Below, one piece after another: positions 29,711 to 39,473 of a DNA stretch of 64,000 nt. The first letter of the stretch is position 1. Each line of letters begins with the position of its first letter. Below the pieces are notes generated by a model. The model was not told the origin of the DNA. It saw nothing but the letters and a program-made list of their open reading frames with translations, and did no database searches. Source of the DNA: Alicyclobacillus sp. (GTDB lineage Bacteria > Bacillota > Bacilli > Alicyclobacillales > Alicyclobacillaceae). The translations under genes and the position numbers were made by a program. The stretch covers positions 124,001 to 188,000 of the forward strand of contig JAIMBT010000001.1 in NCBI GenBank assembly GCA_023511295.1, read 5' to 3'.

Positions 29711-29751
29711 GAGGGTCCAACCCGCCACGCACGACGGCGGATTGGACCCTC
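29711..29751. terminator. Long inverted repeat between converging genes
   Basis: GAGGGTCCAA-C-CCGCC pairs with GGCGG-A-TTGGACCCTC (15 pairs with one mismatch) around a 9-base loop. It sits between fumA and the converging sulfotransferase-APS kinase gene and probably terminates both. T tracts are short. Confidence 0.6.
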
Positions 29752-29754
29752 GCT

Positions 29755-30984
29755 CTATCGGCCGGAGACGTTGTGGAAGACGTTCAGCAGTGTCTCCACG
29801 CACGTGTGGACACTCCAGCGGTCCGTGGGAAGTACCACGTCCGGCTGCGCCGGCGCCTCGTACGGCGCATCGACCCCTGTCATTCCGCTTATCAATCGCT
29901 GCTTCACCCGCTCGTACAGGCCTTTCGGGTCCCGCTTCATACACGTTTCCACTGGGCAGTCGACGTACACCTCGACAAAGCTTCCGGGTTCAAACAGGGA
30001 TTTGGCAAACGCCCGACTTTCTGCGAACGGTGCGATGCACGTGACGAGGACGTGAATCCCCGCATCGCATAACGTCTTTGCAAGATAGGCGATGCGTCGT
30101 ACGTTCTCCTTTCGGTCGACGTCCGTGAAGCCGAGGTCGCTGTTCAATCCGTTCCGCACGACATCCGCATCGAGCACGTACGCGTGCACACCGGCAGCCT
30201 GCAGCCGCCGTTGCAGTGCCGTCGCCACCGTCGTTTTACCCGCACCGGAGAGCCCAGTGAACCAGAAGCACACGCCGTGCCGTGGCCGGACTTCCACGCC
30301 ATCGCCGTCGATGTCGCGCAGGAGTCGTCTGCGTACGTATTCGTACAGCACCATGTCCAGCCGGTTGTGGTCGAGGATCTTTTGAATCACGCGTGCCGGC
30401 AGGTGCTCGAATCGCGGCCGGGTACTGACGTTGAGCGGCGTGTATCCGATGTTGCGCCAACCCAAAACCTGCTGCATCCGCGCGATGGATGCATCGAACC
30501 ACTCCGTGACGCCGACCGCAGCAAAGTCCGATTCCACGTGCCGTATCGCGAGAGACAGGTCTGGTTCGGCTCGCCCGCTGAGGAACCGCGTCTGGACGTT
30601 GGAGTGCTCCAGGGTGTAGGCGGGATCTGCGAGGTACGCTTCGATATCCCCGCGATACCGGGGATATCGAGGGTTCTGATAGCGAAAGTTGAACCACGAT
30701 AGAACCTGCTCCACGGGGTGGCGGAGCACCGTGATGTAAGTGTACGGGCGCGACGTGTAGCGGTGCACGCCGTACCAGAAGTGCCCGCAAAACGCGTCTG
30801 CGGCGTCCATCTGTACGCCGAGCGCGGCCGCCCCTTCGGGTTCAATCCCGTAGCGGTCGACGTCGTACAGCAGGGTGCGCGGATAGTGGCGCATGAGGAG
30901 ATCTGTCAAGGTCGTACCGCCGGTTTTCGGGATGTGTAGAAAAATCACCAGCGGGCGCATCGCCCGGTCTGTCTCTGAACTCAA
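29755..30984 (-). CDS. Sulfotransferase fused to adenylylsulfate (APS) kinase
   Basis: One 409-residue chain with two enzymes. Residues 10-230 form a sulfotransferase with the PAPS 5'-phosphosulfate loop HIPKTGGTTL and the 3'-phosphate region VLRHPVEQVLSWFNFRYQ. Residues 236-409 form a CysC-type APS kinase with Walker A GLSGAGKTT (about 244-252), LDADVVRNGLNSDLGF, DRKENVRRIAYLAK and the lid DPKGLYERV. The chain could make PAPS from APS and use it at once to sulfate an acceptor, probably a sugar, given the neighbours. The start is TTG 30984, overlapping the previous gene's stop (TTGA) with GGAGGGG upstream; ATG 30999 has a tight site. No ATP sulfurylase is in the window. It is last in a three-gene leftward operon. 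Confidence 0.85.
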   Translation of the reverse strand: MSSETDRAMRPLVIFLHIPKTGGTTLTDLLMRHYPRTLLYDVDRYGIEPEGAAALGVQMDAADAFCGHFWYGVHRYTSRPYTYITVLRHPVEQVLSWFNFRYQNPRYPRYRGDIEAYLADPAYTLEHSNVQTRFLSGRAEPDLSLAIRHVESDFAAVGVTEWFDASIARMQQVLGWRNIGYTPLNVSTRPRFEHLPARVIQKILDHNRLDMVLYEYVRRRLLRDIDGDGVEVRPRHGVCFWFTGLSGAGKTTVATALQRRLQAAGVHAYVLDADVVRNGLNSDLGFTDVDRKENVRRIAYLAKTLCDAGIHVLVTCIAPFAESRAFAKSLFEPGSFVEVYVDCPVETCMKRDPKGLYERVKQRLISGMTGVDAPYEAPAQPDVVLPTDRWSVHTCVETLLNVFHNVSGR

Positions 30985-32126
30985 CGCATACCCCTCCATT
31001 GGTCCTTCGCTACGATGCCCTGCGACGAACGCCGGACCGTCTCCGCAATCCATTGGACGTCGGGTTCGGTCAAGTCCGCATACGTCGGCAGGTTCAACCC
31101 AGATGCAGCGACCCGGTTCGCCACGGGGAAATCCGCATCCGGTTGCAGTCCGCGGTACGGTGGCAGGACATGCATGGGGTAGAAGAACGGTCTCGTTTCA
31201 ATCCCATCCGCTGCGAGCGCGTGCATGAGTTGATCTCGCTCTCGGGTTCCCCCGTGAGCCAGGAGGATGCTGAACATCCAGCAAGCACTCTTCGCCCACG
31301 GACGTTCCACCGGCAAGACGATGGCGTCACAGTCCTGCAGCGAGCGGACATACGCCGCCGCGACGCGTCGCCGCTGTGCGATGTGCCAGTCCAGATGTTC
31401 CAACTGGCCGACGCCGATGGCGGCTTGCACGTTGGTCATGCGGTAGTTGTAGCCAACCTCGTCATGCCAGTATCGACGCGACGGATGCGATGCGTGCGCG
31501 CGAAGTCGACGCATGCGCTCCGCCAGCTCGGCCTGCTGCGTCGTGACGGCACCGCCTTCGCCGGTGGTGACAATCTTGTTGCCGTAGAAACTGAATGCGG
31601 CTGCGTGGGCGAGTTGTCCGACGGGCCGGTTTCGGTACAGGGCGCCGATAGCCTCGGCGGCATCTTCGAGGACGAACAGTCCGTGACGGTCCGCAATCGC
31701 GTGGAGCGCGTCCATGTCGGCCGGATGACCGAACAAGTGCACGGCAATCACCCCCTTCGTCTGGGGAGTCACCGCCGCCTCGACGCGTTCCGGGTCGATG
31801 TTCCACGTCAGCGGATCAACGTCGACGAACACGGGCTTCGCCCCGCAATAGATCACGGCGTTGGCCGTGGCCACAAAGGTCAAGGTCGGCAGAATCACCT
31901 CGTCACCCGGGCCCGCGCCGAGGGCGACCAGGGCCAGGTGCAGCGCGGTGGTGCCGTTGCTGCACGCGACGGCGTACGACGTCTGGCAATGCGCGGCCAG
32001 GGCTGCCTCAAACCGCTCGACGTACGGTCCGTTGGAAGACACCCAGCCAGAGTCGAGGCAGTCGAGCACATATCGACGCTCGTTACCCCGAAGTGCGGGA
32101 CGGGACACGGGATACCGGAAATTCAT
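30981..32126 (-). CDS. DegT/DnrJ-type sugar aminotransferase, GDP-perosamine synthase-like
   Basis: A PLP-dependent nucleotide-sugar aminotransferase of 381 residues. It starts YPVSRPALRGNERRYVLDCL and has SGWVSSNGPYVERFE, DEVILPTLTFVATANA and the PLP lysine in FSFYGNKIVTTGEGG. Further on are RYWHDEVGYNYRMTN and IETRPFFYPMH. From memory of RfbE/Per sequences, these blocks match GDP-perosamine synthase closely. That enzyme converts GDP-4-keto-6-deoxymannose to GDP-perosamine, which fits the nearby GDP-mannose dehydratase-like and acetyltransferase genes. GGAGG lies 9 bases before the ATG. Confidence 0.82.
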   Translation of the reverse strand: MNFRYPVSRPALRGNERRYVLDCLDSGWVSSNGPYVERFEAALAAHCQTSYAVACSNGTTALHLALVALGAGPGDEVILPTLTFVATANAVIYCGAKPVFVDVDPLTWNIDPERVEAAVTPQTKGVIAVHLFGHPADMDALHAIADRHGLFVLEDAAEAIGALYRNRPVGQLAHAAAFSFYGNKIVTTGEGGAVTTQQAELAERMRRLRAHASHPSRRYWHDEVGYNYRMTNVQAAIGVGQLEHLDWHIAQRRRVAAAYVRSLQDCDAIVLPVERPWAKSACWMFSILLAHGGTRERDQLMHALAADGIETRPFFYPMHVLPPYRGLQPDADFPVANRVAASGLNLPTYADLTEPDVQWIAETVRRSSQGIVAKDQWRGMR

Positions 32127-32154: not shown

Positions 32155-32793
32155 TTACGTGAACCGTTTCACCACACGGGCGGGGACACCGAGTACGAGG
32201 GCGCGGTCCGGGACGTTGCGGGTGACAACCGCTCCGGCGCCCACCACGGACCGACTGCCAACCGTCACGTTCGGCAGGATGCTCGCCCCCATGCCGACAA
32301 ATGCTCCGGGTCCGACCTGAACGCCCCCCGCCAGATGCGCACCGGGTGCGATGTGGCACGATGGGCCGACCGAAGCGTGGTGGTCAACCGACGCACCGGT
32401 GTTGACGATGGTATTGTCCATGACGTATGCTGCCGTCCCCACCACCGCGCCGGGCATGACCACCGTTCCGTCACCCAATCGGGCAGACGGGGCCACAAAC
32501 GCAGCCGAACTGACCACCGTAATCAGCCGGAAACCGATCTCCAACAACCGCTCCGCCAAGCTGGCCCGCAGAGCGTTGTCCCCAACGGCAATCAGCGCAT
32601 GTTGGGTGCCTTGGCTGTAGAGGCTCGGCAGGATGTCGTCGCCTCCGAGCCACGGGACCCCCAGGTCTCGCCGCACCGTCGGCCCTACGCACCCAAGGAC
32701 CCGATACCGCGAATCCGCATCGAGCAGCTCCGCAACGGCGGCTGCGTGACCGCCCGCTCCGACCACCACGACGTCCAAACCGCTATCTTGCAT
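32155..32793 (-). CDS. NeuD/PglD-type sugar O/N-acetyltransferase
   Basis: A 212-residue protein: an N-terminal Rossmann-like nucleotide-sugar domain (VVVVGAGGHAAAVAELL) and a left-handed beta-helix of hexapeptide repeats (from APSARLGDGTVVMPGA to the end), with a catalytic-type histidine in SVDHHASVG. Such enzymes acetylate the 4-amino group of a UDP- or GDP-amino sugar. First gene of the leftward operon, followed by the perosamine-synthase-like aminotransferase, so it most likely makes the N-acetyl form of that sugar. GAGGTGGAAGAAC precedes the ATG. Confidence 0.85.
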   Translation of the reverse strand: MQDSGLDVVVVGAGGHAAAVAELLDADSRYRVLGCVGPTVRRDLGVPWLGGDDILPSLYSQGTQHALIAVGDNALRASLAERLLEIGFRLITVVSSAAFVAPSARLGDGTVVMPGAVVGTAAYVMDNTIVNTGASVDHHASVGPSCHIAPGAHLAGGVQVGPGAFVGMGASILPNVTVGSRSVVGAGAVVTRNVPDRALVLGVPARVVKRFT

Positions 32794-32920
32794 GTTCTTC
32801 CACCTCGCATGTCTATACGTCTTCAGCAGCGCTCGAATATCTATAGGTCACTCGGGACGGCGTCTGCCGCGCGCGTTCCGCCGACAACGGTTTGGGACAT
32901 ACCCTTCAGGAGGTAGAGTC

Positions 32921-34090
32921 ATGGACATCGGCATCTTGCTCATGTACGACACACGGGTTCCAATGGACGGGGAGGGCATCGGCCGCTACGTCGTCCGACT
33001 CACCCACGGCCTGCTGCAACACCCCGGCATCACCGTGCACGTTCAGACCACCCCAGAAAACCTCAGCGAAGTGCACAAAGTCCTACGCAACGAACTCGTC
33101 ACACATCCGTCCCGTCTGCTCGTGCATCACGAAAGGACCATTCAAGCGGTGAACCGAAATGTCCGCGTCAGCGCGTGGATTGTGCCATACGTCGGCATGG
33201 CAGCTGCCGCAGAACTGACGCAACCGTTCATCGTGTGCCTGCACGACCTCATCCATCGGCACTTTCCAGACCTCTATCTGGCGAATTACGGAGCGTTCTT
33301 TCGGCGCATTGACCAAATTGCCGAAGACGTCGTGCGGCGCGCGGCCGCCGTCGTGTTCTCGTCGGAGTTCACACGCAACCACGAGGGGGCGGCGTTTCTG
33401 CACCTGCCGGAGACTCAGATGCACGTCATCCGCCCTGCCTCTCCGACGGAGGAGTACAGCGAGTTTCCGCTTCCGCCGGAGCCGACGTTCCGCGCCAAAT
33501 ACCAGCTTACGGGCGAGTATTTTGTCTTCCCTTCTGCCATCCGCCTGCACAAGAACCACGACCGACTGATAGAGGCGTTCTTTCAGTTTCGCCGCACACC
33601 GCTGGGCCGGGCCTCCAACCTGCAGCTGGTGTTCACGGACCACCACACGCCGGGACCAAAATCCGCCGAGATTGTCACCCTGCTCAACCGCTGCCCTGAA
33701 CCAGAGATCCGCAACAGCGTGCGTTTTATCGGGCGCCTTCCGGCGAATGATGTTCCATCCTTGTACCGGTACGCAGCGGGAACTGTCGTGCCGACCTTGT
33801 TTGAAGGCAGCTGCCCATTCCCCATCTTGGAGTCGCTCGTCATGCAGACCCCGGTGGCGGTCAGTGACATCGCCGTCGCGCGGGAGGTCATTCCGCAGAT
33901 GGACGCGTTTCTCCCGTTCGACCCCTACGCAACGGACCAAATGGCAAGGTCCATCGCCGCTCTCTGGAGACAAGGCCGCCAACTGGTGACGCGCCAGTTG
34001 CAGGTGCTGGCTCCCGCGCTACAACGCTCATGGACGCTCGTGGCGCAAGAATTTCTCGACATCGTCCGGATGGTTCAGGACCGGGGATGA
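32921..34090 (+). CDS. Glycosyltransferase, GT4-like (GT-B fold)
   Basis: A 389-residue cytoplasmic or peripheral glycosyltransferase. The N-terminal acceptor domain begins MDIGILLMYDTRVPMDGEGI with GIGRYV. The C-terminal donor domain has the strand YFVFPSAIRLHKNHDRLIEA and the E-x7-E region FEGSCPFPILESLV typical of family 4 enzymes. AGGAGG lies 7 bases before the ATG. It is divergent from the acetyltransferase gene over a 127-base promoter region. Donor and acceptor are not predictable, but the locus offers a GDP-4-amino-6-deoxymannose donor. Confidence 0.83.
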   Translation: MDIGILLMYDTRVPMDGEGIGRYVVRLTHGLLQHPGITVHVQTTPENLSEVHKVLRNELVTHPSRLLVHHERTIQAVNRNVRVSAWIVPYVGMAAAAELTQPFIVCLHDLIHRHFPDLYLANYGAFFRRIDQIAEDVVRRAAAVVFSSEFTRNHEGAAFLHLPETQMHVIRPASPTEEYSEFPLPPEPTFRAKYQLTGEYFVFPSAIRLHKNHDRLIEAFFQFRRTPLGRASNLQLVFTDHHTPGPKSAEIVTLLNRCPEPEIRNSVRFIGRLPANDVPSLYRYAAGTVVPTLFEGSCPFPILESLVMQTPVAVSDIAVAREVIPQMDAFLPFDPYATDQMARSIAALWRQGRQLVTRQLQVLAPALQRSWTLVAQEFLDIVRMVQDRG

Positions 34091-34096
34091 CGCGCG

Positions 34097-35101
34097 TCAC
34101 CCCGCCGTGCCCGTTTCCCGACGAGTATCGAGGGATGCGTCACGGCGCGCGGCCAACTTCGTTCGCCAGTAATGGAGCGTGTCTTCGAGCGTCCGCTCCA
34201 GCGGGATCTGCGGCTTCCACCCGGTTTGCCGGTGAAACCGGGTGGGATCTGCGCACAACAACTCGACGTCGGACGGGCGCAAGCGGCTGGCATCGACACG
34301 GACTTCGACCGACAAGTCCGTGAGCTGCAACAGCCTGTCGACACACTCCGAGATGCGCCACGTGACGCCGCTGCCGATGTTGTAGACCTCGCCTGGTTCG
34401 CCCCGTTCCAGGGCCAGCCAGTATGCGCGCACCATGTCACGAACATCGGTGAAATCCCGCTTCGATGCGAGGTTCCCGACATGGAGCACGGGCGGCCGGA
34501 GCCCGTATTCCATCTCCACAATCTGCTTGGCGAAATTGGAGAGAACGAACACCTCCCCGCGCCGAGGACCTTCATGGTTAAAGCACCGTGTGCGGACGAT
34601 GTGCAACCCGTAGCTTCTGTGGTACTGGTACCCGAGCAGGTCTTGGGCCACCTTGCTCACGGCGTAGGTGCTGAGCGGCCGCAGCGGGTTGCTCTCGGCA
34701 ATCGGGGTCTCTTCCGGTCGTACAAGTCCGTATTCCTCACTCGAGCACGCTACTTGGATCTTGCACGGCAGATCCGCCTCACGGACAGCCTCCAAGAGGT
34801 TGAGTTCGCTCACGACGTTGTTGTGCAGCGTGTCCATCGGCGAATTCCACGACGTAGGGACAAAGCTCTGCGCCGCGAGGTGAAAGATCCAATCGGGTTG
34901 AACCGTGCGGATGAGCCGACGGACAGAGTACGGGTCTCGCAGTTCGCACTCCACCAACTGCACTTGGTCGAGCAGGTGTTCGATGTTCTCCAGTGGGCTG
35001 CGGATGCGGCGGGTTCCATACACTGCGATTCCCTGGCGCAACAGGAATTCCGCCAAATGACTGCCGGCAAACCCGGTGATGCCCGTGATCAATGCTTTCA
35101 C
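34097..35101 (-). CDS. GDP-mannose 4,6-dehydratase-like SDR protein
   Basis: An extended short-chain dehydrogenase of 334 residues. It has the NAD(P) loop ALITGITGFAGSHLAE, the HLAAQSFV block, a dehydratase-like SSEEYG, the YAVSK catalytic Tyr/Lys, RCFNHEGPRRGEVFV, and NIGSGVTWRISECVD. The acidic residue in SSEEYG and the PRRGE segment favour a GDP-mannose 4,6-dehydratase; a GDP-4-keto-6-deoxymannose reductase is the alternative. GTG 35101 follows GAAGGAAG. Its likely product, GDP-4-keto-6-deoxymannose, is the substrate of the perosamine-synthase-like neighbour. It converges with the glycosyltransferase with 6 bases between. Confidence 0.8.
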   Translation of the reverse strand: MKALITGITGFAGSHLAEFLLRQGIAVYGTRRIRSPLENIEHLLDQVQLVECELRDPYSVRRLIRTVQPDWIFHLAAQSFVPTSWNSPMDTLHNNVVSELNLLEAVREADLPCKIQVACSSEEYGLVRPEETPIAESNPLRPLSTYAVSKVAQDLLGYQYHRSYGLHIVRTRCFNHEGPRRGEVFVLSNFAKQIVEMEYGLRPPVLHVGNLASKRDFTDVRDMVRAYWLALERGEPGEVYNIGSGVTWRISECVDRLLQLTDLSVEVRVDASRLRPSDVELLCADPTRFHRQTGWKPQIPLERTLEDTLHYWRTKLAARRDASLDTRRETGTAG

Positions 35102-35318
35102 GCCTGCCACTTCCTTCGTCATCGGATGCTGCACACATCGCCCGTCGCGCAGTGTCTTCAAACGGGTTCTGCACGCCGTTGCCGGTGTACAAGGTGTGCT
35201 TGTTCGTTGCTATCGACGGTATGCGGACTGGAGGGGATGCGTGTGGGGAGGAGCCGAGGGCCTGTCAAGGTTGTACCGGATGGCTGGGGGGGCAGAGGTG
35301 CCCGGCGCAAAAGAGGGG

Positions 35319-35342: not shown

Positions 35343-35394
35343 ATGCGAGCGGTCAAGCCTCGACATACAGTGGCGCGTAAGGAGGGAGATGGAG

Positions 35395-35832
35395 ATGGCA
35401 AAGAACATCCGAACCATGCGCGTTCGCACACTCACAGCGAAGAAGTTGGAAGTTGGGCACATCGTTCGCCACGACCACCATCATGAGGCGAAGAAACTGC
35501 ATGAGCTCCGTCGGAAGCTCCGCCACTTGCGCCACGAGCTCAAAGAGGATAACCGCGAGTTGCGGCGGCTTGAGCGAATCTTCGCGGGTCGTGTGGCGAC
35601 CCTGCAGGGCGAGATTGCCGCGTTGCGTCGAGTGGTTGAATCCGGCTTGGCCCCAAACCCCGCATTGCAAGCGACGTTCACGGCTCGTATCGGCCAGACG
35701 GTCACCGTCACGACCCCGGCTGGCGCCGTGAGCGGCACGGTGATTGCGGCGGGTACGGATGCCGTTGAGCTTCGCGAAGCCAGCGGCGACGTGGTTGTGA
35801 TTCCGTATGCGAAGATCACGGCGGTGCAATGA
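35395..35832 (+). CDS. Coiled-coil protein with C-terminal small beta-barrel domain (145 aa)
   Basis: Residues 30-75 form a strongly charged, His-rich coiled coil (HDHHHEAKKLHELRRKLRHL and onward). Residues 95-145 form a small Sm-like barrel (IGQTVTVTTPAGAVSGTVIA, then GDVVVIPYAKITAVQ). AAGGAGGG lies 8-9 bases before ATG 35395. The barrel resembles that of the next gene, and DUF2642-like spore proteins of Bacilli in general shape; that link is a guess. It lies between two glycan genes on the opposite strand. Confidence 0.65.
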   Translation: MAKNIRTMRVRTLTAKKLEVGHIVRHDHHHEAKKLHELRRKLRHLRHELKEDNRELRRLERIFAGRVATLQGEIAALRRVVESGLAPNPALQATFTARIGQTVTVTTPAGAVSGTVIAAGTDAVELREASGDVVVIPYAKITAVQ

Positions 35833-36142: not shown

Positions 36143-37465
36143 CTACCTCCGGCGCCCGAAGCCAAAGAAGTCATTCAACACCACGCGGTAGGGTTCAAAG
36201 TCCGAGGCGCGGATACGCAGTAAACCGCTGGGCCCCACCTGGTTGCCTCGGCAGAACCACCACACATACCCGAAAAACGACAGTACGTAAGATCCCGTCG
36301 ACGCAATCGCCCCGCCCATCATCCCGATGGTGGGTAACAAGATGCAGCAGAGGATGGCGTTGATGACGGCGGAACTCCCGTTCATCACGATGGTGGTCTG
36401 GGGTCGCCCAAGCTGGTTTGTATAGAATTGCAGCAGCACCTGGCTGGCTGCCTTGAACACCAAACCCGGCAGAAGCACGTAGAACGGGGGCAAGGCACCG
36501 GCCCACGCGCGGCCAAACGCAGCCGGAATCAGCCACGGGAAGACGATGTACATGAGAACGGCCACCAACGCCGACGAGAGGAGTGCCTGCCGCGTCGATA
36601 CCTCGGTGATGGCCACCGCCTCGCGCCGGGACGCGGCGGACATGCGGGTATACACCACAGACGTGATGGACTGCGAAATGTTGAGCAGGACCTCGGATGC
36701 CACGACGGCTATCGTGTAGTCCGCCGCCCGGTTCCCGGGAATGAACGCGGCCACCAGCCAGAAATCCATCCGGTAGTTCGCGTAGTTGACGAGGTTCGAG
36801 ATGGACAACCACTGTCCGTATCCCAGGATACCGCGCCACTGTTCTCGCCAGAACCGCCACTGCCAGACGGCGTTTCGGCGAATCGTCCGGTAGCCAATCC
36901 AGAGTCCGCCCGCAGCGGCGGCGACGAAGCTCAGGGTCCAAGCGGCGTACGTCACAGGCAGGCGCTGCGCCAACGGGACTCGGCCCGCCAGGAACAGCGG
37001 CAGGTACAGGAGGAGAAAGACCAGTGGCTGCGCCATGTTCAGGCGGTTCAACCAGCTGATTTCGTTCATCCCCTGCAGCAAACGCGTGGCGTAGTTGACC
37101 ATGAAGCAAAACGGCATCGCTACGCCGGCCCACATCCAGGCGTGGAAGGCGGGTCCCAGCGCGACGCGCAAGCCGAGGGTCACCAGCCAGATGAGCAAAC
37201 TGGCGAGGAACAGGAACAAGTTCCCCATCTGCACCGTGCGCACGGCGTCCTCCGGTCGTCGCGCGAGGGCGTAGGAGATGTAGCCGTTGTACCCGCCGAG
37301 GAAGGTCATGCCCGTATTGCTGATGCTCGATGTGAACTGAAATTCAAGCCGGTCGACGCGCACCGCCTGAAAGTAGCGCGCGGTCAGCACGCTGTTGATG
37401 AAATTGATGAGCGATAACACGCCTTTGTTGAGAAAGGTCAGGAAGGTGGTGCGCGACCGACTCAT
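36143..37465 (-). CDS. Polysaccharide flippase (MOP/Wzx-like)
   Basis: A 440-residue integral membrane protein with about twelve hydrophobic helices. It starts MSRSRTTFLTFLNKGVLSLI and has the SVLTARYF stretch after helix one that is common in the oligosaccharide flippase (PST) family. Cytoplasmic basic loops (RTIRRNAVWQWRFWREQW) alternate with helices. It would move lipid-linked glycan units across the membrane and completes the glycan locus. GGAG lies 8 bases before ATG 37465. Longer upstream frame is non-coding in character. Confidence 0.82.
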   Translation of the reverse strand: MSRSRTTFLTFLNKGVLSLINFINSVLTARYFQAVRVDRLEFQFTSSISNTGMTFLGGYNGYISYALARRPEDAVRTVQMGNLFLFLASLLIWLVTLGLRVALGPAFHAWMWAGVAMPFCFMVNYATRLLQGMNEISWLNRLNMAQPLVFLLLYLPLFLAGRVPLAQRLPVTYAAWTLSFVAAAAGGLWIGYRTIRRNAVWQWRFWREQWRGILGYGQWLSISNLVNYANYRMDFWLVAAFIPGNRAADYTIAVVASEVLLNISQSITSVVYTRMSAASRREAVAITEVSTRQALLSSALVAVLMYIVFPWLIPAAFGRAWAGALPPFYVLLPGLVFKAASQVLLQFYTNQLGRPQTTIVMNGSSAVINAILCCILLPTIGMMGGAIASTGSYVLSFFGYVWWFCRGNQVGPSGLLRIRASDFEPYRVVLNDFFGFGRRR

Positions 37466-37667
37466 GCGTTCAACTCCATTCGCCGCATCCCCCCGTAGAT
37501 CCCGTTTCGACAGTACCACGCCCGCATGGCGCTCGCAATCGCGAAGGAGCATCGGTCCGCGAGATGTGGTACCATGTTCTGTACGAATGCGCCGCCCACA
37601 GCCGGCCGAATCGGCGCCTGGGGACTGCTGGCGCACGGACACGTCGGAGTTTGTGGGAGGGTGGCCC

Positions 37668-39473
37668 ATGCGGACAGTGGATTTGATACATAAGAAACGG
37701 CTCGGCGAGCCGCTCACGGCGGATGAGATCACCGGGCTCATTGCCGGCTACGTGGCGGGCGAAGTGCCCGACTACCAGATGAGCGCCTTCGCGATGGCGG
37801 TCTGCTTTCAAGGTATGACAGCGGCGGAGACCGCGGCCCTGACGCAGGCGATGGTGGCGTCCGGAGAGCGTGTGGACCTCAGTGAGATTGCCGGGACGAA
37901 GGTGGACAAGCACAGCACCGGCGGGGTGGGCGACACGACGACGTTGGTCCTCGGCCCGCTGGTGGCCGCGCTCGGCGTACCGGTGGCGAAGATGTCAGGC
38001 CGAGGTCTCGGCCACACCGGGGGAACGCTGGACAAGATGGAAGCCATCCCGGGCTTGCGCACAGACCTAACGGTGGAACAACTGGTTGCCCAGGTGCGCG
38101 ACATCGGGCTGGCAGTCGCCGGCCAGACGGCGGACCTCACACCGGCGGACAAGAAGCTGTACGCGCTGCGCGACGTGACGGACACGGTGCAGTCGATTCC
38201 ACTCATCGCCAGTTCCATCATGAGTAAAAAACTGGCGAGCGGGGCGGACGCCATCGTGCTCGACGTCAAGGTGGGCGACGGGGCGTTCATGAAGGACCTC
38301 GACGACGCCCGCACGTTGGCCCGGACCATGGTCGAGATTGGACGGCGGGCGGGTCGCAAGACGGTGGCGCTGCTCACGTCGATGGAGGAGCCGCTCGGCC
38401 GAGCCGTCGGCAATGCCCTCGAGGTCCGCGAGGCCATCCAGACGCTGCGCGGCGAGGGGCCAGAAGACCTGACGGAACTGTGTCTGGCCCTCGGGGCGGA
38501 GATGGCGGTTTTGGCTGGGGCCGCCCACTCGCCCGAGGAAGCCCGGCGAACGTTGCTGGCGGTCATCGAGAACGGGCAGGCGCTCGCCAAGCTGAAAGCG
38601 TTTATCGCGGCACAGGGAGGGGACAGCCGCGTGGTGGACGACCTGTCGCTGCTGCCGAAGGCGCCCGTGGTGGCGACGTGGACGGCGCCGCGCGCGGGCT
38701 TCGTCGCTGCGCTGCACGCGGAGGAGATTGGCCGGGTCGCGATGCGGCTCGGGGCCGGGCGCGCGAAGCACGACGACGTGATAGATCCCGCCGTCGGCCT
38801 GGTTCTCTTGCGCAAGGTCGGACAGACCGTGCAGGCGGGGGAAGCCGTGGTGGAGGTGCACGCCGCGCGGGAGGCGGACGCGCAGCGCGCGCTCCGCGAA
38901 CTCGATGACTGTGTGGTCCTCAGCGATGCCGCGGTCTCGCCCATCCGACTGATCTTGGACACCGTCCGGGACGTTGAGACGGCGCCTGAAGTAGGCCCGG
39001 CGGCCAGTGAAGCGGGCCAAGCAGCGAGCGAAGCGCGCCCGGCGAACGCGCCGGAAGCGGACCCGGACGGGCTGCTGGCAGCAGCGCAAGCGGCGATGGT
39101 ACACGCGTACGTGCCTTACTCTGGCTTCGCGGTCGGCGCAGCGCTGCGGCTCTCGAACGGCGAGATCATCACCGGCGCGAACATCGAAAACGCGTCCTAC
39201 GGACTGACCAACTGCGCGGAACGCACGGCGCTCTTCCGCAAGCGCATGCAGGTCCCGGAGGACGTGGCCATCGTGGCGGTCGCGGTGGTGGCGGACAGCA
39301 GCGATGGCCCCGTTTCGCCGTGCGGCGCCTGCCGGCAAGTCCTGGCGGAGTTCTGTCAACCGGACGTGCCGGTGTGGCTTGCGGACCTGAACGGGCACCG
39401 CATGCAAACCACGGTCGCGGAACTTCTGCCGTACGCGTTCCAGAAGGGGCAGATGGACGGGGCGCGGGTCTAA
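37668..39473 (+). CDS. Pyrimidine-nucleoside phosphorylase fused to cytidine deaminase
   Basis: A 601-residue bifunctional protein. Residues 1-433 are a Pdp/DeoA-type phosphorylase with the phosphate site KHSTGGVGD (81-89), GRGLGHTGGTLDK, and a C-terminal biotin-like domain (GAGRAKHDDVIDPAVG). A 30-residue Ala/Glu/Pro linker (GPAASEAGQAASEARPA) follows. Residues 465-601 are a cytidine deaminase with zinc ligands in NCAERTA and PCGACRQVL. Deamination of cytidine or deoxycytidine and phosphorolysis of the uridine produced would occur in one chain. In Bacilli the two are normally separate genes. ATG 37668 follows GGGAGGG. Confidence 0.9.
   Translation: MRTVDLIHKKRLGEPLTADEITGLIAGYVAGEVPDYQMSAFAMAVCFQGMTAAETAALTQAMVASGERVDLSEIAGTKVDKHSTGGVGDTTTLVLGPLVAALGVPVAKMSGRGLGHTGGTLDKMEAIPGLRTDLTVEQLVAQVRDIGLAVAGQTADLTPADKKLYALRDVTDTVQSIPLIASSIMSKKLASGADAIVLDVKVGDGAFMKDLDDARTLARTMVEIGRRAGRKTVALLTSMEEPLGRAVGNALEVREAIQTLRGEGPEDLTELCLALGAEMAVLAGAAHSPEEARRTLLAVIENGQALAKLKAFIAAQGGDSRVVDDLSLLPKAPVVATWTAPRAGFVAALHAEEIGRVAMRLGAGRAKHDDVIDPAVGLVLLRKVGQTVQAGEAVVEVHAAREADAQRALRELDDCVVLSDAAVSPIRLILDTVRDVETAPEVGPAASEAGQAASEARPANAPEADPDGLLAAAQAAMVHAYVPYSGFAVGAALRLSNGEIITGANIENASYGLTNCAERTALFRKRMQVPEDVAIVAVAVVADSSDGPVSPCGACRQVLAEFCQPDVPVWLADLNGHRMQTTVAELLPYAFQKGQMDGARV

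Follow-up and report, generated by a model that had tools for sequence, protein, structure and literature searches.

A predicted sulfotransferase–APS kinase fusion protein encoded by the last gene of a sugar cluster in Alicyclobacillus sp.

A minus-strand gene in a 64,000-nucleotide stretch of Alicyclobacillus sp. DNA (the window hereafter) is predicted to specify a single 409-aa protein, with a PAPS-dependent sulfotransferase (ST) as its N-terminal part (residues ~11 to 228) and an APS kinase (AK) as its C-terminal part (residues ~234 to 405). The join looks real and looks rare. Sequence comparisons and a structure model make it rather probable that the product is a bifunctional, PAPS-making sulfotransferase that arose from a rare fusion and has the glycan of its own gene cluster as acceptor. 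If so, a single-chain catalyst would sulfate glycans from APS and ATP, and the fusion would allow a direct test of local PAPS delivery to a sulfotransferase.

RESULTS

One reading frame spans both domains

The gene, its domains and motifs, and the signals flanking it are located in the window as follows.

29755..30984, minus strand: sulfotransferase–APS kinase fusion gene (409 aa, TTG start, TAG stop; translation, Pfam, NCBIfam)
30301..30984, minus strand: N-terminal sulfotransferase domain, residues 1-228, HS2ST/HS6ST-like fold (Pfam, AF2, VIA-align)
30910..30936, minus strand: ST PAPS motif HIPKTGGTT, residues 17-25 (H17, I18, K20, and G23 invariant in 36 sulfotransferases)
30781..30783, minus strand: His68 codon, counterpart of HS2ST His142 (invariant in 36; profile alignment)
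30697..30723, minus strand: ST motif R88 to S96 (R88 and S96 invariant in 36 sulfotransferases)
30286..30306, minus strand: inter-domain link, residues 227-233 (AF2, pLDDT < 50 at 229-233)
29770..30285, minus strand: C-terminal APS kinase domain, residues 234-405 (Pfam, NCBIfam, VIA-align)
30229..30255, minus strand: P-loop GLSGAGKTT, residues 244-252 (sequence and conservation)
30991..30997, minus strand: Shine-Dalgarno-like GGAGGGG, with a 6-nt spacer to the TTG start
29711..29751, no strand: perfect inverted repeat with 10-bp arms (29711-29720, 29742-29751) that separates a convergent fumarase-family gene from the fusion gene

Translation from 30984 down to 29755 yields 409 aa and a stop, and HIPKTGGTTL, VLRHPVEQVLSW, GLSGAGKTT, LDADVVRNGLNSD, and DRKENVRRI are all found in it; a previous sequence-only reading of this DNA had the coordinates and the motif content right and left the strand unstated. 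It had also taken the TTG overlapping the previous stop as a sign of a real single gene, a view borne out by the unbroken frame and the evenness of the coding signal. The TTG start codon at 30984-30982 shares bases with the TGA that ends the aminotransferase gene upstream, the two genes overlapping by 4 bp; an in-frame ATG upstream at 31053 (432 aa) and an internal ATG at codon 9 are alternative starts. Both halves lie in the same frame with alike codon-position GC (0.77 at third positions in the ST half versus 0.75 in the AK half), and codons 200 to 248, which contain the junction, are free of stops in all three frames of the strand. This makes a frameshift where the two halves meet unlikely. 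The downstream inverted repeat is terminator-like, lacks a T-run, and is absent from the pattern-scan listing.

A domain search and a structure prediction, two of the checks proposed by the sequence-only reading, both came out in its favor. Pfam and NCBIfam matches exceed the cut-offs for both halves, and an ATP-sulfurylase part, the trait of PAPS synthases and CysNC, is absent from the 409 residues in the same scans. The AlphaFold model, computed from aligned sequences of 39 sulfotransferases together with 10 kinases, has a mean pLDDT of 91.9 and shows two compact, well-folded domains. Because pTM is 0.65 and residues 229 to 233 fall below a pLDDT of 50, the placement of the two domains relative to each other is uncertain.

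The ST half resembles heparan sulfate sulfotransferases

Pfam recognizes the ST half as Gal-3-O-sulfotransferase (residues 13-229, E 5e-8) and Sulfotransfer_2 (11-113, E 4e-7), both above the cut-offs. By structural alignment (VIA-align 2), its residues 3-227 superpose on heparan sulfate 2-O-sulfotransferase (HS2ST, 4ndz; Z 20.8, rmsd 2.8, 221 aligned) and residues 6-228 on the 6-O-sulfotransferase (HS6ST, 5t03; Z 17.4, rmsd 3.1, 200 aligned), and a PDB sequence search with a profile of 36 ST relatives recovers this same pair. Twelve residues are invariant among 36 aligned STs, the window's included (H17, I18, K20, G23, H68, G72, H74, Y83, R88, S96, A146, and D210), among them those of the PAPS-binding pattern K..GGT and R.......S (K20, G23, R88, and S96). 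Residues 17-25 we take to be the sulfotransferase 5'-phosphosulfate-binding motif, and the stretch from R88 to S96 is presumably the 3'-phosphate-binding motif. Of the 28 columns that are conserved at ≥80% among 96 other STs, the window ST agrees with 26 and departs at Q93 and F98. His68 aligns with HS2ST His142 in the profile alignment; an excerpt of the HS2ST literature describes His142 as the putative catalytic base, with activity below 1% in the alanine mutant (PMC6094399). In its modeled fold and its aligned catalytic-histidine counterpart, the ST half would qualify as an HS2ST-like PAPS-dependent carbohydrate sulfotransferase, whose putative glycan acceptor we infer from the neighboring genes.

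The AK half is predicted to be active and is visibly derived

The C-terminal half matches Pfam APS_kinase (PF01583) at residues 237-385 (E 4e-56; 189.7 bits versus a cut-off of 21.1) and the NCBIfam apsK equivalog TIGR00455 (204.6 bits versus 138.7). Structurally, it aligns with the kinase domain of human PAPSS1 (2ofw; Z 28.6) and with Mycobacterium tuberculosis CysC (Z 27.2; all VIA-align). For the latter enzyme, the part of PMC4373884 available to us names nine contact side chains (K456, D480, R483, F492, R497, C556, R559, K562, and F576), and the alignment shows eight of them kept, as K250, D274, R277, F286, R291, C348, R351, and K354. The ninth, F576, described in that same part as one of two rings that sandwich the APS adenine, corresponds to M368. 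This position is Phe in 67 of 68 other AKs and Met in one. Among columns conserved at ≥85% in the 68, the window domain keeps 46 of 54, including the TG..PYE region, and departs at eight; at two of these, A273 and R363, Gly is found in 68/68. Loss of PAPS- or APS-binding residues, which the sequence-only reading had named as evidence against itself, is therefore partial: Phe576 and two otherwise invariant glycines are changed, and the other contacts are retained.

In the AK tree, the window domain groups with the other 68 AKs, outside a divergent kinase group (100/99), on a long branch (0.54 versus a median of 0.23). From its sequence, the domain is probably active, and its derived state is what most weakens the bifunctional reading. 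Two origins were tried with constrained trees, chosen once the unconstrained tree was known. Descent as a recent copy from the genome's own CysC was rejected (p-AU 0.009), and joint descent with two paired AKs of Paenibacillus was marginally disfavored (p-AU 0.045); the sequence data thus appear to support neither.

The fusion gene closes a sugar gene cluster

Upstream of the fusion gene, the window carries the following genes.

30981..32126, minus strand: DegT-family sugar aminotransferase gene, directly upstream (Pfam; closest in NCBIfam to LegC and PseC, both below cut-offs)
32155..32793, minus strand: NeuD/PglB/VioB-family sugar acetyltransferase (NCBIfam TIGR03570, 211.4 bits, cut-off 160.8)
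32918..34090, plus strand: glycosyltransferase, group 1, start uncertain (Pfam)
34097..35161, minus strand: sugar 4,6-dehydratase, nearest GDP-mannose dehydratase (Pfam; gmd scores highest in NCBIfam, at 183 bits against a cut-off of 415)
35389..35832, plus strand: small protein (57% over 51 aa to its relative in the ALC3 module; DUF2642-like end, weak and short of the cut-off)
36143..37741, minus strand: polysaccharide flippase-like protein (Pfam Polysacc_synt_3, E 2e-7)

The glycan-gene setting that had been proposed is supported, with the fusion gene as the cluster's end member. By sequence, these neighbors would be suited to making a glycan that contains a 4-acylamino-4,6-dideoxyhexose; except for the acetyltransferase, the curated NCBIfam models score below cut-off. 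The same module in Alicyclobacillus sp. ALC3 (G033) shares the dehydratase (73% identity), aminotransferase (61%), glycosyltransferase (44%), acetyltransferase (41%), and small protein. Since a ManC-type nucleotidyltransferase gene belongs to this module and adjoins the dehydratase gene, comparison of the two suggests that the sugar is GDP-mannose-derived and perosamine-like. The small-protein gene is divergent from the dehydratase gene, and its product may belong to the cell surface or the spore coat, which would make it a candidate glycan carrier. Pfam scans of eight window proteins found no phosphoramidate-type genes.

Relatives of the ST are found with and without a linked kinase gene

Within its module, ALC3 has a stand-alone ST (234 aa, 39.6% identity to the window ST). 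No AK adjoins it, and the only APS kinase match in ALC3 lies ~0.95 Mb away. In the ST tree that we relied on (61 hand-chosen rows), the window ST is sister to that of ALC3 (100/89), and the two together form the sister group of a pair of CysC-linked STs from Paenibacillus (100/98). These Paenibacillus pairs (L057 and L058, two species) have the order CysC→ST, the ST start lying 2 bp past the cysC stop. The order is ST→CysC in pairs of genus g305 (L176 to L178, three genomes of another family), with possible cysC starts 9 to 45 bp past the ST stop. No glycan cluster around the Paenibacillus and g305 pairs was recognized by eye in the stretches read. In g305, loci L182 to L184 show two-gene ST–cysC modules that adjoin a formate-dehydrogenase-like gene and, by eye, a CBS-domain regulator-like gene. 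STs of the window's family thus accompany cysC in three or more arrangements, and a fusion was seen in the window alone.

The sequence-only reading had named homologues consistently split at this point as evidence of an artefact. As worded, this is not what the relatives show, given ALC3 without an adjacent kinase and Paenibacillus with the opposite order; the three g305 genomes do have adjacent genes in the window's ST→AK order, which calls for caution. APS kinase was found in 21 of 23 ST-bearing genomes queried; the other two, G975 (genus g305) and G933 (loci L175 and L179), gave no match at E 1e-15, and ST–AK coupling is therefore not universal. The G933 ST appears frame-shifted.

Among other genomes with STs of this family, Candidatus Frackibacter (G079) carries six full-length ST paralogues and a weak seventh within ~14 kb (L047, C41:6001-26000) and a further copy on contig C16 (L048). 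In G195 (L138:13403-15070), an ST of the window's family has a ~320-aa C-terminal extension, and a cysC lies ~5 kb away.

Sulfate activation elsewhere in the host genome

The host genome has one Sat (ATP sulfurylase) match, on contig C9, i.e., on another contig than the fusion gene, and a second, ordinary CysC on contig C35. Because APS must come from an ATP sulfurylase encoded on another contig, the fusion is not self-contained, and because of the second CysC, the fused AK domain is dispensable for PAPS as such. The term "self-contained sulfation module" that had been offered for the fusion was therefore too strong, the second CysC gene also lying near another sulfotransferase gene. At that locus (L046:7596-9823), cysC and a Sulfotransfer_3 gene share a strand, and a single reading frame of the opposite strand lies between them. 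Both APS kinase domains of the genome thus accompany a sulfotransferase.

Surveys find no other fusion with a genuine APS kinase

The sequence-only reading considered the placement in a Bacillota glycan operon unexpected and asked for the same domain order in other genomes. Adjacent ST→AK genes were found in g305, and no other fusion of an ST with a genuine APS kinase was found in surveys of the family, the Bacillota, the class, the Pseudomonadota, the G443 phylum (cyanobacterial), plasmids, phages, and viral contigs; Actinomycetota and other phyla were left out. Within that scope, the window's arrangement is indeed very unusual.

In the family, 33 of 41 genomes matched, and a match spanning both halves was confined to the window's genome (G000). 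The ST domain matched three of 398 Bacillota genomes (G000, G079, and G195) and was fused in G000 only. PF01583 matched at least 151 of these 398 at E 1e-3, and near-full-length AKs among the matches listed included five frames of 299 to 480 aa (G371, G350, G260, G235, and G000), the reading having left out 14 frames of ≥564 aa (CysNC or Sat–AK size). By eye, the four besides G000 are a plain AK, an AK with a partial Sat, and two AK–methyltransferase proteins, none with an ST. The last two, L136:2239-3378 and L137:2071-3210 (G260 and G235), show an APS-kinase-like domain fused to a methyltransferase-like domain. In the class survey (398 genomes), the ST domain matched 20; at the 19 loci besides G000, one per genome (±~1.5 kb), none was fused and 3 had adjacent ST→AK genes. 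Among the matches listed for 299 Pseudomonadota genomes (at least 229 with an AK), the nine odd-length and two G440 frames read contained no ST. The 65 AK-bearing genomes among the 146 of the G443 phylum gave frames of 176 to 245 aa, except two of 605 and 541 aa that were left unread.

Plasmids yielded 531 matching records, none covering more than 80% of the query, and phages yielded five, matching the AK portion only. Viral contigs gave no match for query P0001 and three loci for query A1, with one domain apiece, and a viral fold library gave matches to single domains only. On the contigs of the best 80 of 131 relatives (79 loci), none of their frames combines both domains; this ranking favors kinase-bearing loci, so that the proportion having an AK close by would be a biased estimate of frequency.

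One frame with both domain types besides the window's was met among the loci examined. WP_244442704.1, on plasmid AZO_p6 of Azospirillum lipoferum 4B (L043:4501-7041, 846 aa), has an ST-like N terminus, a middle region of ~400 aa, and a divergent APS-kinase-family C terminus. The ST-like region scores 58 bits with a home-made profile and has no Pfam sulfotransferase match. Its kinase domain clusters with those of two kinase–methyltransferase proteins, apart from 69 other AK rows (100/99). The neighboring genes specify a PEP-utilizing enzyme, a glutamine amidotransferase (GATase), and a nucleotidyltransferase, a setting that we take to resemble a capsule phosphoramidate pathway. WP_244442704.1 may be a phosphoramidate transferase joined to the kinase for its donor; it is apparently an independent parallel and not a second case of the window's fusion.

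DISCUSSION

The scheme that we infer for the two activities, the glycan acceptor, the order of events, and the benefit of the fusion would run as follows. The separate ATP sulfurylase of the genome would supply APS, the C-terminal AK would phosphorylate it to PAPS, and the N-terminal HS2ST-like ST would spend the PAPS on a sugar hydroxyl, with His68 as general base. The acceptor would be the glycan built by the neighboring amino-dideoxysugar cluster. The fusion may have originated when a CysC-type kinase was joined to an ST that already belonged to the glycan module, and it would fix a one-to-one ratio and raise the local PAPS supply where it is used. Against this bifunctional reading count the single instance, the departures in the AK domain, the second CysC, the non-universal coupling, the uncertain inter-domain arrangement, and an acceptor deduced from the neighbors.

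How closely the two active sites would cooperate can be read in two ways. That the enzyme is a self-charging ST, making PAPS from APS and ATP instead of drawing on a shared pool and handing it over between its active sites to serve one surface glycan, strikes us as doubtful; channeling of PAPS to one acceptor, as the sequence-only reading had put forward, is possible, and nothing here favors it over free diffusion. There is close to an even chance that both domains work independently and the fusion brings equal amounts and co-localization, with PAPS diffusing freely. This alternative is compatible with a bifunctional, PAPS-making sulfotransferase and denies the hand-over alone. The disordered link and the modest pTM give no fixed arrangement of the domains, and since tight linkage of two separate genes, whichever comes first, suffices in relatives, co-expression is suggested as what is selected. 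Nothing decisive speaks against independent domains, although a flexible tether could still boost local PAPS.

Other explanations would remove one of the two activities or the gene itself. It is unlikely, although a good deal less so than the two possibilities that follow, that the C-terminal domain is a degenerate AK with a regulatory role, binding APS or PAPS or keeping a dimer together, and leaves PAPS synthesis to the other CysC. Its eight departures at conserved columns, with the APS-stacking Phe and two otherwise invariant glycines among them, its long branch, and the presence of that second CysC are in line with such a loss, for which the part of PMC2275785 available to us offers a precedent in a fungal AK domain, fused to ATP sulfurylase, that is regulatory and not catalytic. 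The domain nevertheless keeps the P-loop lysine, the Asp, Arg, and Lys contacts, and the lid cysteine, and it scores well above the NCBIfam equivalog cut-off. A sequencing or assembly artefact, in which adjacent ST and cysC genes were merged through a lost stop codon, is very improbable. The ST→CysC pairs of g305, with their short gaps, show what such a pair could look like, and the 41 family genomes searched include no second species of the window's genus; frame and codon-position GC are nonetheless continuous across both halves, the stop-free junction makes a frameshift unlikely, and the sister ST of ALC3 has no adjacent kinase. Read-through of a conserved gene pair was judged unlikely on the same continuity and junction, despite the g305 pairs. 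We give least credence of all to a kinase half that acts on another nucleotide, as does cytidine diphosphoramidate kinase (Cj1415), which belongs to capsule phosphoramidate pathways. A divergent type of the APS kinase family does exist in WP_244442704.1 and the two kinase–methyltransferase proteins, the former beside PEP-utilizing, GATase, and nucleotidyltransferase genes. The window domain, however, falls with the 68 other AKs, retains TG..PYE, and exceeds the apsK cut-off, and its scanned neighbors are sugar genes, with none of phosphoramidate type among the eight proteins scanned.

PAPS makers fused to ATP sulfurylase are known (excerpts of PMC2275785 and PMC4921024). These fusions join the preceding step, whereas the window's would join the following one. 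A bacterial cluster for a sulfated polysaccharide has cysN, cysD, cysC, and a sulfotransferase as separate genes, according to an excerpt of PMC11641403, and the portion seen of the main text of a review of polysaccharide sulfotransferases (PMC11625862) lacks the terms "APS kinase," "fused," "fusion," and "bifunctional." Our searches of open-access PMC turned up no description of an ST–APS kinase fusion; subscription papers or domain-architecture databases may hold one. The fusion also draws attention to a group of HS2ST-like Bacillota sulfotransferases, some of them paired with cysC.

Among known systems, stand-alone CysC and the kinase domains of CysNC and PAPS synthases are like the window AK in family, fold (Z about 27 to 29), P-loop, and most APS/ADP contacts; it differs from them in being fused behind a sulfotransferase and not to an ATP-sulfurylase subunit, and in the replacement of the APS-stacking Phe by Met. 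The ST half shares its fold (residues 3-228), PAPS motifs, and catalytic-His counterpart with HS 2-O- and 6-O-sulfotransferases and with the Sulfotransfer_2 and Gal-3-O-sulfotransferase families, although it shows 18 to 26% identity in the structural alignments, is bacterial, and carries its own APS kinase. WP_244442704.1 of Azospirillum likewise has an ST-like N terminus and an APS-kinase-family C terminus in one frame; it is set apart by its ~400-aa middle region, divergent kinase, and phosphoramidate-like gene setting. The Paenibacillus (L057 and L058) and g305 (L176 to L178) pairs have the same two protein families in tight linkage but as separate polypeptides. In humans, PAPSS2 and SULT2A1 also bring a PAPS maker and a PAPS user into physical association, as two separate proteins, as seen by proximity ligation and docking, according to the part of PMC6016456 available to us. 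In the literature searched, local PAPS delivery has so far been approached through these two interacting proteins, whereas the window's gene would hold both functions in one fused chain.
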